Source of the DNA: Reyranella sp.
Lineage (GTDB): Bacteria > Pseudomonadota > Alphaproteobacteria > Reyranellales > Reyranellaceae
Direction: 5' to 3'
NCBI RefSeq assembly: GCF_030651995.1
Contig: NZ_JAUSBN010000035.1
Coordinates: forward strand, 62,001 to 126,000
DNA length: 64,000 bases
Below the pieces are notes generated by a model. The model was not told the origin of the DNA. It ran no database searches and saw nothing but the letters and a program-made list of their open reading frames with translations. This document shows positions 658 to 9,663 of this stretch, one piece after another. The first letter of the stretch is position 1; every line of letters starts with the position of its first letter. The position numbers and the translations under genes are program-made.

Positions 658-1629
658 TCAGAGCTTACGCATCACCATCTGCGAGCCGCCGCCCCAGATC
701 GGCAGATAGGCCATCTTGTAGCCGGCGCCGCCGGTCACGATCGGATGGATCGCCTCCGGGGAGGCGGCGACGTCCTTGCCCTGGTCGAACAGGTATTGCT
801 GGACGCGCCTGATGTCCCAACCCTCGTGCCGCGCGATCTTCTCGGCCAGTTCGAGCGGCAGGAGAAGGACCTGTTCGCCGCGCCCGCTCTTTCGGCTCTG
901 GCCCGACATCGCGATCTCGGCCTGCATGCCGGCAACGACCGGGTCGAGGATCGCCGCGGGCGTGGCGCCTTCTCCATCGCCGGGCAGCACCTCGGCGGTG
1001 CCTGAAATGCCCATCACCGTGAGGGCGCTCTCGTCTTTGCTGAGGCCGTGGCGTTCGGTGAAGGTGGGGAAGGGACCGTCGTTCCTCTCGGCGAAGCACA
1101 GCGTGTACTTGGCGGGCTGGCCCATCGTCGCCATGTCGCCCGTGTCCGATCTGGCGCCGCCGATGTTGCGCAGGCAGAGCTGCAGGGCGCGGCCGATGCA
1201 GGCGTTGGCGCGGGTGCCGGGACCGATCGTGTTGGTCAGCGCGTTGACGCCCAGCGTGCGGACAATCGGGCCGTGGAGGCAGAGCGCGACCGCGGCACTG
1301 CCGGTGGTCGTGGCGATGCCGAGGAGATTGAAGTCCGGTTCGAGCATGGCCTGCGCCGCCGCCAGGACGACGGGCAGTTCGGCCGGCAGGCAGCCCGCGA
1401 TCACGCACTGGTAGGCGACGGACTCGGGCGTGATGTCGCCGAACATCGGCGGCATCATTCCGAGGGAGTCCGCCCGCCCGGCGATACCGGCGATCATGGC
1501 GTCGAGCCGCCTCTGCGTGGGCGGGACCAGCGGGAGGCCGTCCGAGAGTTCGGCCTCCGCCAGGATCTGCTGTGCGTTCTCCCAGGCCGTCGATTCGTCG
1601 ACGACCGGCCAGCCGCACCACTCGTTCAC
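658..1629 (-). CDS. Conserved protein of unknown function, UGSC-selenoprotein-operon paralog 1 (~323 aa)
   Basis: Homologous by eye to the adjacent 1640..2677 product (SDGxPLxxPT, AGCxPExxPVVxAA, NLxGxATT, GPI...N..TN..G.G..ANA.IGRALxLxLxN.GGA, G.PAKxTxCF.E). GTG start at 1629 chosen because the upstream extension overlaps the previous gene. Confidence 0.8.
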   Translation of the reverse strand: MNEWCGWPVVDESTAWENAQQILAEAELSDGLPLVPPTQRRLDAMIAGIAGRADSLGMMPPMFGDITPESVAYQCVIAGCLPAELPVVLAAAQAMLEPDFNLLGIATTTGSAAVALCLHGPIVRTLGVNALTNTIGPGTRANACIGRALQLCLRNIGGARSDTGDMATMGQPAKYTLCFAERNDGPFPTFTERHGLSKDESALTVMGISGTAEVLPGDGEGATPAAILDPVVAGMQAEIAMSGQSRKSGRGEQVLLLPLELAEKIARHEGWDIRRVQQYLFDQGKDVAASPEAIHPIVTGGAGYKMAYLPIWGGGSQMVMRKL

Positions 1630-1639
1630 GACGGGTCGC

Positions 1640-2677
1640 TCATCGGGCGATGCGCGTGCAGGCGACGGTGGTGCCGCCGAACGACGGGATGAACGCCGAA
1701 TGCTTGCCCGCACCGCCCGCCACCGTGATGTGGATGTCCTTCGGATCGCGGCCGATCGACAGCCAGTCACCGTCCGGCTTGTGGCCGGTGGTCTCGTACG
1801 TCACGAGGTTTTCCTTCGAGACGCGCGAGAGATGGACTCGCGAGCGCTTCCACAGCTCCTCGCGGATGCTGTCGATCGTGAAACCGTCGCGCTTCAGGGT
1901 CGCGGCATGCTCGGGACCGATGATGACGAACATCGGGCCCTTGCCGTAGATCGTGTTGGAGCCCGGGTTGGACATGCCGCCCGCGAAGGTGGTCAGCAGC
2001 CCGTCGCCGGTGGTCGAACCATGGTCGTTGAGGTTATGCGGGCCTTCGCCCGACATCACCGTCACGACCGAGTCGGTCGGCGCGAAGCCGCGCTGCACAT
2101 GATAGGGCGCCCAGGGATTCTCCTCCTCGTTCTCGCCGAAGCAGAAGGTGAACTTGGCGGGATTGCCCTGGGTCGAGCGGTCCATTTCGCCCGGCTTGGC
2201 GCCGGCGACGTTCAGCAGCATCAGCCCGAGCGCGCGGCCAATCGTGGCATTGGCCTGGCGACCCTGGCCGAAGCAGTTGGTGCCGCAGTTGATGTTGAGC
2301 TCGTGCCGGATCGGGCCGCTCACCATGACCATCGGCGCACAGGAGTGCGTCGTCGCGAGCGTACCGTGGAGATTGTACTCCGGGTCGAGCACGCCGCGCA
2401 GGGCGGCGGTCACGACCGGGAAGTATTCGGGCTTGCAGCCGGCCATGACGGCATTTGCCGCCAGTGCCTGCAGCGTCGGAACGACCTGGCGCGGCGGCAC
2501 CGGCGGGTAGGGGCGGTTGTCGCCGCGCACGGTCTCGACGAACTTCGCCACTTTCGCCTCGGTGGGCACGAACAGCGGCATGCCGTCGCTCCAGCCCTGT
2601 TCGTTGGCGTACTCGTTGAAGGCCTCGACATCCATGTCGCCGATGTCGATCACTTCCTGTTCGGCGATGTCCTTCAT
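1640..2677 (-). CDS. Conserved protein of unknown function, UGSC-selenoprotein-operon paralog 2 (345 aa)
   Basis: Long ORF; ATG overlaps the stop of the selenoprotein CDS (ATGA at 2674-2677); paralogous to 658..1629; Cys-rich segment NCGTNCFGQGRQANATIGRAL. Confidence 0.85.
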   Translation of the reverse strand: MKDIAEQEVIDIGDMDVEAFNEYANEQGWSDGMPLFVPTEAKVAKFVETVRGDNRPYPPVPPRQVVPTLQALAANAVMAGCKPEYFPVVTAALRGVLDPEYNLHGTLATTHSCAPMVMVSGPIRHELNINCGTNCFGQGRQANATIGRALGLMLLNVAGAKPGEMDRSTQGNPAKFTFCFGENEEENPWAPYHVQRGFAPTDSVVTVMSGEGPHNLNDHGSTTGDGLLTTFAGGMSNPGSNTIYGKGPMFVIIGPEHAATLKRDGFTIDSIREELWKRSRVHLSRVSKENLVTYETTGHKPDGDWLSIGRDPKDIHITVAGGAGKHSAFIPSFGGTTVACTRIAR

Positions 2678-3192
2678 TTGCCTGTGGCCTCGGTCAGTCC
2701 CTTGGTCGCTGCTTCTATACGTTCCCGCAGCTCTTCGGCGTTGAGGCCGCCGACGGGATGCTTGACCACGATCATGCGCGCCTCGACCTTGCGGGCTTTC
2801 GCCTGCGCCAGGACCAGCGGTTTGAAAGTCTCAGTGGCGATCACGAAAGCGGTGATGCCGAGCTTCTCGAGTTCGAGGCTGTCGTGGAAACTCCACGATG
2901 AACAGCTTCCTCAATCCCCTAAGGCTAGTAGCGCTGCCTTGTAGTTCTTCGCGACCTTCTCGATCAGTTCCTTCGGCGCCGGCTGGCTGGCGCTGTTCTT
3001 GGCATGGAAGTGGATATTGTCGACCGGCCGGTGCGCGCCCAGCATGGCGCGGACGCCTTCCAGCAGCTCGCGGGCATTCGGCTTCGAGTTGGATATCAGG
3101 GCGATGGCGTCCGTCGCCCAGTTGACGGGCTGCAAGGTCACCTTGGCAGGACCGGCGGCGGCCATGCCGAAGCTCGGATTGAAGATGCGCAT
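2674..3192 (-). CDS. UGSC-motif selenoprotein; in-frame TGA (2911..2913) read as selenocysteine at residue 94 of 172
   Basis: ORF MRIFNPSFGM...NYKAALLALGD, then TGA, then GSCSSWSFHDSLELEKLGITAFVIATETFKPLVLAQAKARKVEARMIVVKHPVGGLNAEELRERIEAATKGLTEATGK*, in frame with no other stop; SD GGAGGG upstream of the ATG; SECIS-like hairpin immediately 3' of the TGA; matches the known UGSC (seleno)protein family core GDUGSC(T/S)SWS.HD..ELEK.G. Confidence 0.93.
2878..2906 (-). promoter_or_regulatory. Putative bacterial SECIS element for the UGSC selenoprotein
   Basis: RNA after UGA: GGAA-GCUGU-UCAU-CGUGG-AGUUU-CCACG-ACAGC. Lower 5-bp and upper 5-bp stems with a one-sided bulge and a 5-nt apical loop holding GU; loop G is at +20 after UGA. 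Confidence 0.85.
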
Positions 3193-3209: not shown

Positions 3210-4079
3210 CTACTTGTTCAACGCCGCGACAATCGACTTGGCGACGCGCTGGCCGTCCGCGATGGCGTTGGCCAGGTATTCCTTGGAGCCGGACCGAACG
3301 TCGCCGGCGGCGAACACCAGCGACTGGGCGGTCTGGCCCGCCTCGTCCACAACGATATGCCCCGTGGCGTCGCGTGCAAGCGAATCCGGCAGGAATTCCG
3401 CAGCGGGAGACCGGCCCTCGTAAACGAACACCGCATTTGTCGGAATGCGGTCTCGCTGACCGTCGTTTTCGACCGTGACCGCCTCAAGCCCATTGCTGCC
3501 TTCGAGGCCGACGATGCGCCCCGGCCGGGCGGTGACGCCTTCCGGTACCGGGCCGGTCGGCGTGCCGAGCATGGTGATCTCGCCGGCGATGCCCACGAGG
3601 ACGGCGGCCTCGTACGGCGCCCAGCCGGTGGCGCCGGCGATGATCACCGGCTGGCCGGCATAGAGCGGGCCATCGCAGTTCGCGCAGTGGGACAGGCCCC
3701 GCCCTTCATATTCTTCCTCGCCGGGAAGGCCGAGCTTGCCCTTGCTCATGCCGGTCGCAACCACGAGGGATCGCGCCGTATGGCGCTCGCCGTCGGCGGT
3801 CTCGATCTCGAAGGGCCCATTGCCGGAAATCGCTGTGACTTCGCCGAAGCCGATCTCGACGCCAGCGACGACGGCATCGTCGGTCAGGCGCGCGGCCATG
3901 GTCGTGCCGTCGAAGATCTCCTCGAAATCGTGCAACTGGCCCAGGTTGATGATCTCGCCGCCGGGCGCAAGCTTGTCGAGGCAGAGCGCCTTCAGGCCCG
4001 CGCGGGCGACTTCGGTGGCGGCGGTGAGGCCGGCCGGGCCGGCGCCGATGACGATCACGTCGTAGGAAGGGGTGTCCAT
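3210..4079 (-). CDS. Thioredoxin-reductase-like FAD-dependent oxidoreductase
   Basis: YDVIVIGAGPAGLTAATEVARAGLKALCLDK (FAD GxGxxG), redox pair SHCANCDGPLYAGQ, C-terminal FAAGDVR; start at MDTPSYDV. Confidence 0.88.
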   Translation of the reverse strand: MDTPSYDVIVIGAGPAGLTAATEVARAGLKALCLDKLAPGGEIINLGQLHDFEEIFDGTTMAARLTDDAVVAGVEIGFGEVTAISGNGPFEIETADGERHTARSLVVATGMSKGKLGLPGEEEYEGRGLSHCANCDGPLYAGQPVIIAGATGWAPYEAAVLVGIAGEITMLGTPTGPVPEGVTARPGRIVGLEGSNGLEAVTVENDGQRDRIPTNAVFVYEGRSPAAEFLPDSLARDATGHIVVDEAGQTAQSLVFAAGDVRSGSKEYLANAIADGQRVAKSIVAALNK

Positions 4080-4254: not shown

Positions 4255-5169
4255 ATGGCGTATTTCACGCAACAGCTGATCAACGCAATCACGCTGGGCG
4301 CCATCTACGGGTTGATCGCCATCGGATACACGATGGTCTATGGGATCATCGGCATGATCAACTTCGCGCATGGCGAGGTGTTCATGATCGGCGCCTTCAT
4401 CTCGCTGATCGGCTTCGTCATCTGCGGAAGCCTCGGCATCAGCTCGGCACCCATCGCCATCGTTCTCGTGCTGCTCTTGGCCATGTCATTCTCCGCCGTC
4501 TACGGATGGGCGATAGAACGAACGGCTTACAGACCGTTGCGGGGCTCGTTCCGGCTGGCCCCGCTGATCTCCGCCATCGGCGTGTCGATCGCCCTCCAGA
4601 ACTACGTGCAACTGGCGCAGGGGGCGCGACCCAAACCCGGTGGGCAGGTCGTGTCCGGCGGCTTCAACCTCTTTACCGCCGACGGCTTCGACGTGCGCGT
4701 CACCTGGCTGCAGATCATCATCGTGCTGGTGACGGTCGTGCTGATGGCGGGCTTCACCTGGGTGATCGCGAAAACCTCGCTGGGACGCCAGCAGCGCGCC
4801 TGCGAACAGGACATGAAGATGGCGGCGCTGCTGGGCGTGAATGTCGACCGCACCATCTCGCTCACCTTCGTGCTGGGCGCGGCATTGGCCGCCGTCGCCG
4901 GCATGCTGTTCCTGATGTACTACGGCGTGGTCGACTTCTTCATCGGCTTCCTGGCCGGCATCAAGGCCTTCACCGCGGCGGTGCTGGGGGGCATCGGCTC
5001 GCTGCCTGGCGCTATGCTGGGCGGGCTGCTGATCGGGCTGATCGAGGTCTTCTGGGCCGGCTACTTCTCGAGCGAATACAAGGATGTCGCGGCCTTCGCG
5101 ATCCTCGTGCTGGTGCTGATCTTCCGGCCGAGCGGCCTGCTCGGCAAACCGGAGATCGAGAAGGTCTGA
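4255..5169 (+). CDS. livH: Branched-chain amino acid ABC transporter permease (LivH family)
   Basis: AITLGAIYGLIAIGYTMVYGIIGMINFAHGEVFMIGAF typical LivH N-terminus; followed by livM/G/F. Confidence 0.93.
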   Translation: MAYFTQQLINAITLGAIYGLIAIGYTMVYGIIGMINFAHGEVFMIGAFISLIGFVICGSLGISSAPIAIVLVLLLAMSFSAVYGWAIERTAYRPLRGSFRLAPLISAIGVSIALQNYVQLAQGARPKPGGQVVSGGFNLFTADGFDVRVTWLQIIIVLVTVVLMAGFTWVIAKTSLGRQQRACEQDMKMAALLGVNVDRTISLTFVLGAALAAVAGMLFLMYYGVVDFFIGFLAGIKAFTAAVLGGIGSLPGAMLGGLLIGLIEVFWAGYFSSEYKDVAAFAILVLVLIFRPSGLLGKPEIEKV

Positions 5170-5172
5170 CGG

Positions 5173-6590
5173 ATGGGCCCGCGTCTGCCTCTCATGCTGA
5201 AGGATGCGGGGCTCACCGCGTTCGTCGCCGCCGCGCTGGGCATCTTTATCGTCGGCTTCCGCACCGTCGACCAGGGCGGCGGAAAGGGCCTGGGCTTCGA
5301 CTATCACCTCGTCGATCTCGCCGTGGCGGTGTTCGTCATCTTCATCGGCCGGCTCGGCCTCTCGATGGCGGCGAACGGGCTGCGCTGGCCCGCCATCGTT
5401 CTGGGGGTGGCGATGATGGCGGCCGGCGCCTCGCCGATGAAGCTGCCGTCCGGCTTCCTGCACTGGTTCGTGGCGCTGGGCGGCGTGCTGCTGGTGATCC
5501 GCGCGATCTGGCCGTGGGCCAACGACGCCATGGGCGTCGCGGCGCGGACGCCGTCCGGCGTGGCGCTCGGAAAGGCCGGCGTCAAATGGTTCGGCTGGCT
5601 GTTGCTGGCGGCGGCGGTCCTGATGCCGTTCACGCCCTTCGCCGACCAGAAGACGATGGATCTCGGCGTGCTGATCCTGACCTACGTGATGCTGGGGTGG
5701 GGGCTCAACATCGTGGTCGGCCTCGCCGGCCTGCTCGACCTGGGATACGTCGCCTTCTATGCGGTCGGCGCTTACGCCTACGCGCTGCTCAGCACGCAGT
5801 ACGGGCTGGGCTTCTGGACGGTCCTGCCGCTCGCCGGGATGATGGCGGCACTGTTCGGCATCGTGCTGGGTTTTCCGGTGCTGCGCCTGCGCGGCGACTA
5901 TCTGGCCATCGTGACGCTGGGGTTCGGCGAGATCATCCGCCTCGTGCTGCTCAACTGGTTCGACCTGACCAACGGACCGGCCGGCATCGGCTCGATTCCC
6001 GGTCCGACCCTGTTCGGCGCCGTGTTCGCCGAGACTCCGCCGCCCGGCAAGCAGACCGTGTCGGAGATGCTGGGCATCGCCTTCGACGGCAACCACCGGC
6101 TGATCTTCCTCTACTATATCATCCTCGGCCTGGCGCTGATCACCAACCTCTTCACGCAGCGCATGCGGCGCCTGCCGGTGGGCCGTGCCTGGGAGGCGCT
6201 GCGCGAGGACGAGACGGCCTGCCAGGCGCTCGGCATCAACCCGACCAACACCAAGCTCACGGCCTTCGCGATCGGCGCCATGTTCGCGGGCTTCGCCGGT
6301 TCCTTCTTTGCCGCCAAGCAGCGCTTCATCAGCCCCGAGAGTTTCGTGTTCATCGAATCGGCGATCATCCTGGCGATCGTCGTGCTGGGCGGCATGGGCA
6401 GCCAGATCGGCGTCGTGCTGGCCGCTGTGCTGCTGATCGGCCTGCCCGAATGGTTTCGTGATCTCGGCAACTACCGCATGTTGGCCTTCGGCCTCGCCAT
6501 GGTGCTGATCATGGTGTTCAAGCCGCGCGGCCTCATCTCCCACCGCGAGCCGTCGATCCGATTGCATCCCGCCGGCTCGGGAGGCGGCGG

Positions 6591-6594
<4 letters not shown>
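5173..6594 (+). CDS. livM: Branched-chain amino acid ABC transporter permease (LivM family)
   Basis: GLNIVVGLAGLLDLGYVAFYAVGAYAYAL; LRLRGDYLAIVTLGFGEIIR; ENETACQALGIN-like segment. Confidence 0.93.
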
Positions 6595-7407
<813 letters not shown>

Positions 7408-7415
<8 letters not shown>

Positions 7416-8136
7416 ACCCTCGTTCCTGTCGGTGAACGGCGTCGAGACCTTCTACGGTGCCATCCAGGCCCTGCATGGGGTCGATCTCGAGGTGGCGCGC
7501 GGCGAGATCGTGACCCTGATCGGCGCCAACGGGGCGGGGAAATCCACCCTGCTGATGACGATCTGCGGCAATCCCCGCGCGCACAGCGGCACCATCGTGT
7601 TCGACGGCGAGGACATCACGGCGCTGCCGACCCACCAGATCGTGCGGCGCGGCGTGGCGCAGGTGCCCGAGGGGCGACGCATCTTCGCGCGCATGAGCGT
7701 CTACGAGAACCTTCAGATGGGCGCGATCCTGGGCGATCCGGCCAACTTCAAGTCGGACCTCGACCGCGTCTTCGCCATGTTCCCGCGGCTGGCCGAGCGG
7801 CGCGACCAGCGTGGCGGCACCCTGTCAGGCGGCGAGCAGCAGATGCTGGCGATCGGCCGTGCCCTCATGAGCCGGCCGAGGCTGCTGCTGCTCGACGAGC
7901 CGTCGCTCGGCCTCGCGCCCCTGATCGTGCGCCAGATCTTCGATTCGATCGGCCGCATCGCCCGGGAGGAGGGTGTCACGATCTTCCTCGTCGAGCAGAA
8001 CGCCTTCCACGCGTTGCGCCTGGCCGATCGCGGCTACGTGCTGGCCAACGGCCGGGTGCGCCTCAGCGGCAGCGGCAAGGAGCTGCTGGCCAACCAGGAG
8101 GTCCGCGCGGCCTATCTCGAGGGCGGCCACGCATGA
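7408..8136 (+). CDS. livF: ABC transporter ATP-binding protein (LivF family)
   Basis: YGAIQALHGVDLEVARGEIVTLIGANGAGKSTLLMTICG, LSGGEQQMLAIGRALMSRPRLLLLDEPSLGLAP; start MPEPSFL. Confidence 0.95.
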
Positions 8137-8495
8137 GCCCGCTCGACACCTTCATGTTCGACTGGTTCGGCGACACGCTGTTCAACGTGGTCGTGTTCAA
8201 CCTCGTGCTGATCGGGCCGGCCTCGTTCGCGGCCGGCCATGCCGTCGCGCTGACCTGGCGGCCCTGGCCGCAGATCGTGTTCTACACGGCGCTCCTGTCG
8301 GCCACGTTGCGTTTCCTCGACTATGCCCTGGCGGGCGGCGAGTTGTTGTCGCTGGCCGGTTTTGCACTGGGCTGGGCCGTACAATTGTCGATCGCGGCCT
8401 TTGCCTTCAGGCTCACGCGGGCGCGCCAGATGGTGCGCCAGTATCCGTGGCTCTACCGGCGCAAAGGCTTGCTGGGTTGGGACGACCGGCCTTAA
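8133..8495 (+). CDS. Small membrane protein embedded in the liv operon (resembles DUF6867)
   Basis: ATGA overlap with livF; MSPLDTFMFDWFGDTLFNVVVFNLVLIGPASFAAGHAVALTWRPW. Confidence 0.7.
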   Translation: MSPLDTFMFDWFGDTLFNVVVFNLVLIGPASFAAGHAVALTWRPWPQIVFYTALLSATLRFLDYALAGGELLSLAGFALGWAVQLSIAAFAFRLTRARQMVRQYPWLYRRKGLLGWDDRP

Positions 8496-8550
8496 TGTAA
8501 TGGTCATGCTCCGCAGCAGCGGAGGGGGCTCAATCAACAGGGAGACTCGG

Positions 8551-9663
8551 ATGAAGAAGTTGTACGGCACGCTGGCCGTTGCCGCCGTTGCGCTGATGGC
8601 GACGCCCGCGTTTGCCCAGATCAAGATCGGCTCGGCCGGTCCGATGACCGGCTCGAACGCCGCGTTCGGCGAGCAGCTCAAGCGCGGCGCCGAGATGGCG
8701 GTCGCCGACATCAATGCCGCCGGCGGCGTCAACGGCCAGAAGCTCGAGCTGGTGATCGGCGACGATGCCTGCGACCCCAAGCAGGCAACCGCGGTCGCCA
8801 ACAAGATGGTGTCGGACAAGGTCGTGTTCGTGGCCGGGCACTTCTGCTCCGGCTCGTCGATCCCGGCCTCGGATATCTACAAGGAAGGCAAGATCCTGCA
8901 GATCACGCCGGCCTCGACCAATCCGAAGCTGACGGACGACGCCGCCGGCAAGGGCAACACCACCGTGTTCCGCACCTGCGGCCGCGACGACGTGCAGGGC
9001 GCGACGGTCGGCGCCTACATCCTGAAGAACAAGAAGGACGCCAAGGTTGCGATCCTCCATGACAAGTCGCCCTACGGCAAAGGCGTGGCCGACGAGACCA
9101 AGAAGGCCCTGAACAAGGGCGGCCTGCGCGAGGCGATGTACGAGGCCTACAACGACACCGACAAGGACTTCGCCGCGCTGATCAACAAGATGAAGCAGGC
9201 GAAGATCGACATCATCGTACTGGGCGGCTACCACACCGCCGGCGCGCTGATCATCAAGCAGGCGCGCGAACAAGGCCTGGCCGCGCAGATGATGGGCTTC
9301 GACTCGCTCGAGACGGCCGAGTTCGCCCAGCTGGGCGGCGCGGCGACCAACGGCGTGCTGATGTCGTTCCCGCCCAAGGCCGAGGACGACCCGAAGAATG
9401 CCGCCCTGGTGAAGAAGTTCCGCGACGCCAAGTACAATCCGGAAGGCTACACGCTGTTCAGCTACGCCGCGGTGAAGGCCTGGGCCGATGCCGCCAACAA
9501 GGCGAAGTCGACCGAAGCAGCCAAGGTCGCCGCGGCGCTGCGCTCGGGCAAGTTCGACTCGGCCGTCGGGGTGCTCGAGTTCGACGCCAAGGGCGACATC
9601 AAGGACGCGGTCTACGACATCTACGTCTGGAAGGACGGCAAGTCGTCCCCGATGAAGAAGTAG
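8551..9663 (+). CDS. livK: Branched-chain amino acid ABC transporter substrate-binding protein
   Basis: Signal peptide MKKLYGTLAVAAVALMATPAFA; IKIGSAGPMTGSNAAFGEQLKRGAEMAVADINAAGGVNG. Confidence 0.93.
   Translation: MKKLYGTLAVAAVALMATPAFAQIKIGSAGPMTGSNAAFGEQLKRGAEMAVADINAAGGVNGQKLELVIGDDACDPKQATAVANKMVSDKVVFVAGHFCSGSSIPASDIYKEGKILQITPASTNPKLTDDAAGKGNTTVFRTCGRDDVQGATVGAYILKNKKDAKVAILHDKSPYGKGVADETKKALNKGGLREAMYEAYNDTDKDFAALINKMKQAKIDIIVLGGYHTAGALIIKQAREQGLAAQMMGFDSLETAEFAQLGGAATNGVLMSFPPKAEDDPKNAALVKKFRDAKYNPEGYTLFSYAAVKAWADAANKAKSTEAAKVAAALRSGKFDSAVGVLEFDAKGDIKDAVYDIYVWKDGKSSPMKK

Follow-up and report, generated by a model that had tools for sequence, protein, structure and literature searches.

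A near-obligate partner family for the orphan selenoprotein UGSC suggests a thioredoxin-driven reductase system

Introduction

Where does the redox chemistry of a gene pair reside that encodes two nameless, cysteine-containing proteins? The question is raised by a stretch of DNA from Reyranella sp. (Bacteria; Pseudomonadota; Alphaproteobacteria; Reyranellales; Reyranellaceae according to GTDB), which covers 64,000 nt (assembly GCF_030651995.1, contig NZ_JAUSBN010000035.1, positions 62,001-126,000, forward strand) and is referred to as the window. Two neighboring genes herein, P2 and P1, encode members of a family for which the RefSeq label is "hypothetical protein". An initial reading of these genes, based on the sequence alone, had suggested a redox or metal site in the CGTNC motif of P2, with P1 as the structural or regulatory partner. 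However, this sequence-only reading overlooked a selenoprotein gene located immediately upstream of P2, which is masked by an in-frame TGA codon. The encoded protein belongs to the UGSC family, listed in a 2026 review among the families that are still largely uncharacterised (PMC13188914).

Results

The gene upstream of P2 very probably encodes a UGSC selenoprotein

The features of the operon are compiled in Table 1. The frame 3192..2674 is broken by a single TGA in the context ALGD-U-GSCSSW, and its stop codon overlaps the start codon of P2 (ATGA, 2677-2674), placing the gene directly upstream of P2. A gene for a TrxR-like flavoprotein is next upstream. The operon is adjoined by a divergently oriented gene set for an ABC transporter of the branched-chain amino acid type, comprising permeases, ATPases and a binding protein (4255-9663).

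Table 1. Features of the UGSC-P operon in the window.
Feature	Position	Strand	Basis
TrxR-like FAD protein, 289 aa, CANC motif	3210..4079	-	Pfam Pyr_redox_2, E 2e-27
UGSC-family selenoprotein gene, 172 aa with TGA read as Sec	2674..3192	-	PF24696, E 8e-38; readthrough translation
In-frame TGA, probable selenocysteine codon U94 in DUGSC motif	2911..2913	-	ORF reading; homologue comparison
Predicted SECIS-type hairpin just 3' of the Sec codon, apical stem 2898-2882	2869..2912	-	MFE -16.4 kcal/mol, z -2.1
P2, first P-family gene, 345 aa; Cys 81, 113, 131, 135, 179, 340	1640..2677	-	
P1, second P-family gene, ~323 aa from GTG 1629; longest ORF 1770..658	658..1629	-	

The readthrough product passes the cut-off of Pfam model PF24696 (E = 8e-38; 130.7 bits versus 25) and, when scanned with C replacing U, stays below the curated cut-off of NF041046 (121.2 versus 125 bits). 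A genome-wide search revealed three UGSC genes in Reyranella, each with one TGA. The genes for tRNA-Sec(TCA), SelB and SelA share one contig of this genome, and that for SelD lies elsewhere. The same codon was inspected in 125 UGSC genes: it is TGA in 121 cases, TAG in two and a Cys codon in the remaining two. Both TAG-using genes are from Geodermatophilaceae, namely Blastococcus and Geodermatophilus (L102:7450 and L104:7456), a family for which tRNA-Sec with the anticodon CUA and TAG-coded selenoproteins with the UGSC motif have been reported (PMC5330540). RNA folding was assessed 3' of the Sec codon in 117 homologues, using synonymous codons permuted among the homologues as null. The RNA folds better in the real genes, with a mean MFE of -17.24 versus -15.68 (sd 0.19) after permutation. 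Because the Sec machinery is present, a hairpin is predicted downstream and the homologues exhibit this folding excess, the TGA in the window very probably encodes selenocysteine. The opposite reading, i.e. a true stop codon or an assembly error with no selenoprotein being made, is extremely improbable: it is contradicted by the recurrence of the codon in the homologues, by its replacement with TAG in a family reported to have a CUA tRNA-Sec, and by the hairpin together with a complete Sec machinery.

As a side observation, SelD resides within an open frame of 761 aa at locus L197 (G000:C80:68170-69084), which is consistent with the fusion of NADH dehydrogenase and SelD reported in PMC2398784.

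UGSC and P are linked across genomes

Among 385 genomes of the class, UGSC is present in 38 and P in exactly those 38 (hypergeometric probability 2e-53, uncorrected for phylogeny). In a phylum-wide sample of 399 genomes, UGSC was found in six, all of which are within the seven with a P match; the match in the seventh genome is marginal (92 residues, 21 bits). The two genes are also neighbors: at 76 of 80 genome loci detected with the P profile, UGSC lies beside P on the same strand with a median gap of 34 bp, and the opposite-strand arrangement does not occur among these 76. At the other four loci (L100, L106, L110, L145), P is at or near a contig end. The Reyranella genome follows the same pattern with four P genes, two in the window and the others each adjoining one of the two remaining UGSC genes. 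Linked UGSC and P genes occur in Alpha-, Beta- and Gammaproteobacteria, Actinomycetota, Chloroflexota and haloarchaea, and up to eight diverged UGSC genes are present per genome of the class. Hence, UGSC-P linkage is near-obligate.

In eight loci read directly (L189-L196), UGSC and P even form a single open frame, and five of these also hold a second, separate P gene. One fusion (L193, G363:C21) carries CGLC in place of UGSC and an N-terminus resembling a signal peptide, which suggests an exported Cys variant. A fusion of UGSC with a protein called "Unknown_1" was reported in 2008, and Unknown_1 may correspond to the P family (PMC2398784). On the basis of neighborhood and fusions, P is best read as the partner of UGSC, with P1 and P2 representing non-selenium subunits of the UGSC system; the two proteins presumably form a complex.

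P1 and P2 are old paralogs, but CGTNC is not the core of the family

In agreement with the sequence-only reading, P1 and P2 are tandem paralogs. BLASTP aligned them with 99 identities in 332 residues (30%; 140 bits, E = 4e-43), and the alignment spans every shared block named previously. The cysteines in the AGC and CF blocks (C81 and C179 in P2) are kept in both proteins, while C131 and C135 of the CGTNC motif in P2 are replaced by A and T in P1. The proposed loss of two cysteines is therefore true for these two sequences.

Across 150 P sequences the picture is different. C81 is found in 145 and C179 in 138 members (missing from five and 12, respectively), whereas C131 is a Cys in only 29 and C135 in 47, which speaks against a redox or metal site in CGTNC. 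Judged by conservation, the core cysteines of the P family are C81 and C179 rather than the CGTNC pair, and these two may matter for catalysis. Tree reconstruction resolved a P1 clade (n = 19) and a P2 clade (n = 23) with a support of 100 each, whose members co-occur as the second and first gene after UGSC, respectively. This P2-P1 tandem pair spans Alphaproteobacteria to Geodermatophilaceae. By these relationships, the P1 and P2 clades are old and have been inherited together. Within the P2 clade C81, C113, C135 and C179 are kept in 23/23 members and C131 in 19/23, so the motif is well conserved there and not across the wider family. In the P1 clade C131 never occurs (0/19), C135 is present in 13/19, and C81 is lost in 4/19. 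Thus, the view that P1 lacks both cysteines holds for C131 and fails for C135 in most orthologues. These counts by clade mark CGTNC as a feature of the P2 subtype and P1 as a relaxed partner, which would be the more divergent subunit.

What do these data imply for the proposed heteromeric pair? Since both clades are distinct, well supported and travel in tandem, a P2-P1 heteromer is plausible for the P1/P2 subtype; as most systems have a single P, it is not essential. A stronger version, in which P1 and P2 function as a heteromer on their own, with CGTNC as the metal or redox site and P1 as the structural subunit, gains from this co-inheritance and from the retention of C113, C131 and C135 in the P2 clade. 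Nevertheless, we rate it as quite improbable, because conservation of CGTNC does not extend to the wider family, most loci have only one P and selenocysteine sits in the adjoining UGSC protein. This selenocysteine is likely the redox residue of the system. A locus in a marine Rhodospirillaceae genome (L095:5974-9056) exhibits three tandem P genes after UGSC.

Structure and profile comparisons of UGSC and P

The AlphaFold model of UGSC (pLDDT 94.3) depicts an alpha/beta protein with U94 at the start of a helix following strand 86-92. Its best matches in the PDB are flavodoxin/Rossmann-like with TM scores of ~0.4-0.5, rather than the thioredoxin fold suggested for UGSC in PMC2398784. When profiles were compared with hhalign, and only in this profile-profile comparison, UGSC aligned with GrdB-like selenoproteins Sec on Sec (probability 72, E = 3e-5); unrelated control pairs reached probabilities of 0.1-0.2. 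Pfam family PF07355, to which a GrdB-like gene in the Reyranella genome belongs (L174, G000:C77:50403-50930), did not match the UGSC protein of the window at E < 0.1, and the Pfam families listed for 81 UGSC members do not include it. As an aside, 10 of the 14 genomes of the class with PF07355 also have UGSC.

P2 was likewise modeled with high confidence (pLDDT 93.9, pTM 0.93). A scan of P1, P2 and 109 homologues with Pfam and NCBIfam models returned no credible family, and the P and UGSC profiles gave nothing significant against PDB sequences. The fold comparison proposed with the sequence-only reading did not classify P either: the best Foldseek match in the PDB (TM 0.24, E = 2.6e-3) is not significant. 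As the fold was compared with the PDB only, a new fold is not claimed. Class I fumarase and cyclic-amide (Toblerone-fold) hydrolase were considered for P and rejected on account of weak matches (TM 0.24-0.27; hhalign probability of 0.2 for fumarase). Direct kinship of P with UGSC or GrdB was dismissed as well, as the profiles exhibit no resemblance.

Thioredoxin and TrxR-like proteins accompany UGSC and P

Genes for TrxR-like proteins are found beside P2-type genes in 14 further genome loci, with a CAxC motif in each. The TrxR-like protein of the window matches TIGR01292 with E = 4e-52 but reaches only 176.9 bits, which is under the cut-off of 343.45. In the Blastococcus (L102) and Geodermatophilus (L104) loci, the TrxR-like frame continues in frame into UGSC, and the junction lacks an ATG, GTG or TTG. 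These fusions suggest that the TrxR-like flavoprotein of the window is likely dedicated to UGSC. Several P proteins, including one in the Reyranella genome, carry an N-terminal thioredoxin domain (CxTC and VPT motifs), whose profile matches solved thioredoxins with E = 8e-7. Unfused clusters with Cys replacing Sec are present on plasmids, in the order trxB-trxA-P-UGSC in Arthrobacter and P-UGSC-trxB in Roseovarius.

Linkage and fusions of this kind would also fit a module for thiol or peroxide defence or repair, in which TrxR keeps the Sec oxidoreductase UGSC reduced and P is a repair client or chaperone-like scaffold; many prokaryotic selenoproteins are thiol oxidoreductases according to PMC2398784. 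We regard this explanation as unlikely. The neighbors are catabolic and transport genes, the several diverged copies, i.e. up to eight UGSC genes in one genome, fit substrate diversification better, and P is conserved over its whole length as expected for an enzyme.

Discussion

We consider it probable that UGSC, P and the TrxR-like protein constitute a thioredoxin-driven selenocysteine reductase resembling glycine and D-proline reductase, in which P holds a small substrate. Electrons would pass from NAD(P)H to the TrxR-like flavoprotein, and from there, with or without thioredoxin as a further carrier as in related systems, to the selenenylsulfide/selenol-thiol pair U94-C97 of UGSC, which would reductively cleave or reduce the substrate held by P. 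Both the direction of this flow and substrate binding by P, argued from gene position, are proposed here.

The neighbors of UGSC-P genes encode TTT, TRAP and ABC transport proteins, CoA-transferases, acyl-CoA dehydrogenases and aconitase X. They suggest that the substrates are small organic acids or amides taken up through TTT, TRAP or ABC systems, a class that stays broad because the neighbor genes differ between loci. In Sporomusa and Vibrio plasmids (L226:8323-10047 and L227:8374-10059, respectively), aconitase X/DUF126 genes adjoin a long CDS in which a P domain is combined with a weak UGSC match at the N-terminus; this neighborhood is a possible clue to the substrate.

This analysis provides an orphan selenoprotein with a partner family and describes a reductase system that can be put to the test. 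UGSC, P and TrxR look like a previously unrecognised system, and a near-obligate partner, an electron-donor chain and fusions turn the orphan into something that can be reconstituted and assayed. Automatic annotation can break up this operon, leaving a truncated ORF and two proteins without a name. More tentatively, with chances that we put at somewhat less than even, UGSC and P may represent a widespread class of thioredoxin-driven Sec reductases in aerobic bacteria and some haloarchaea (with Cys in the latter), which resembles glycine/proline reductase and combines an unrelated substrate subunit with many substrate-specific copies per genome.

How does this system compare with those already known? 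The gene in the window shares the Sec-containing UGSC motif and a score over the Pfam cut-off with family PF24696/NF041046, the description of which gives no function; the P partner lacks a model. The TrxR-like protein has the FAD/NAD(P)-binding fold and the CxxC motif of low-molecular-weight TrxB, but is shorter and below the TIGR01292 cut-off. In glycine reductase, the Sec-containing protein B works with a partner that binds the substrate and with a thioredoxin system from the same operon, the clostridial grd operon carrying its own trxA3/trxB3 (PMC10880999), and protein B occurs in several substrate-specific copies within one genome (PMC10838667). UGSC-P is similar to GrdB/GrdE and PrdB/PrdA in that an alpha/beta domain with a U-x-x-C Sec motif is accompanied by a second subunit and, as in grd (PMC10880999), by a thioredoxin system of its own in the operon; like protein B (PMC10838667), it occurs in several copies per genome. 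In contrast to GrdB/PrdB, UGSC has only ~170 aa and no match to PF07355, for which reason membership in that family is not claimed, and P members match no Pfam family of the pyruvoyl-cleavage partners GrdE/PrdA. Judging by their taxon names, many UGSC-P hosts are aerobic or halophilic, which is a further difference from GrdB/PrdB.
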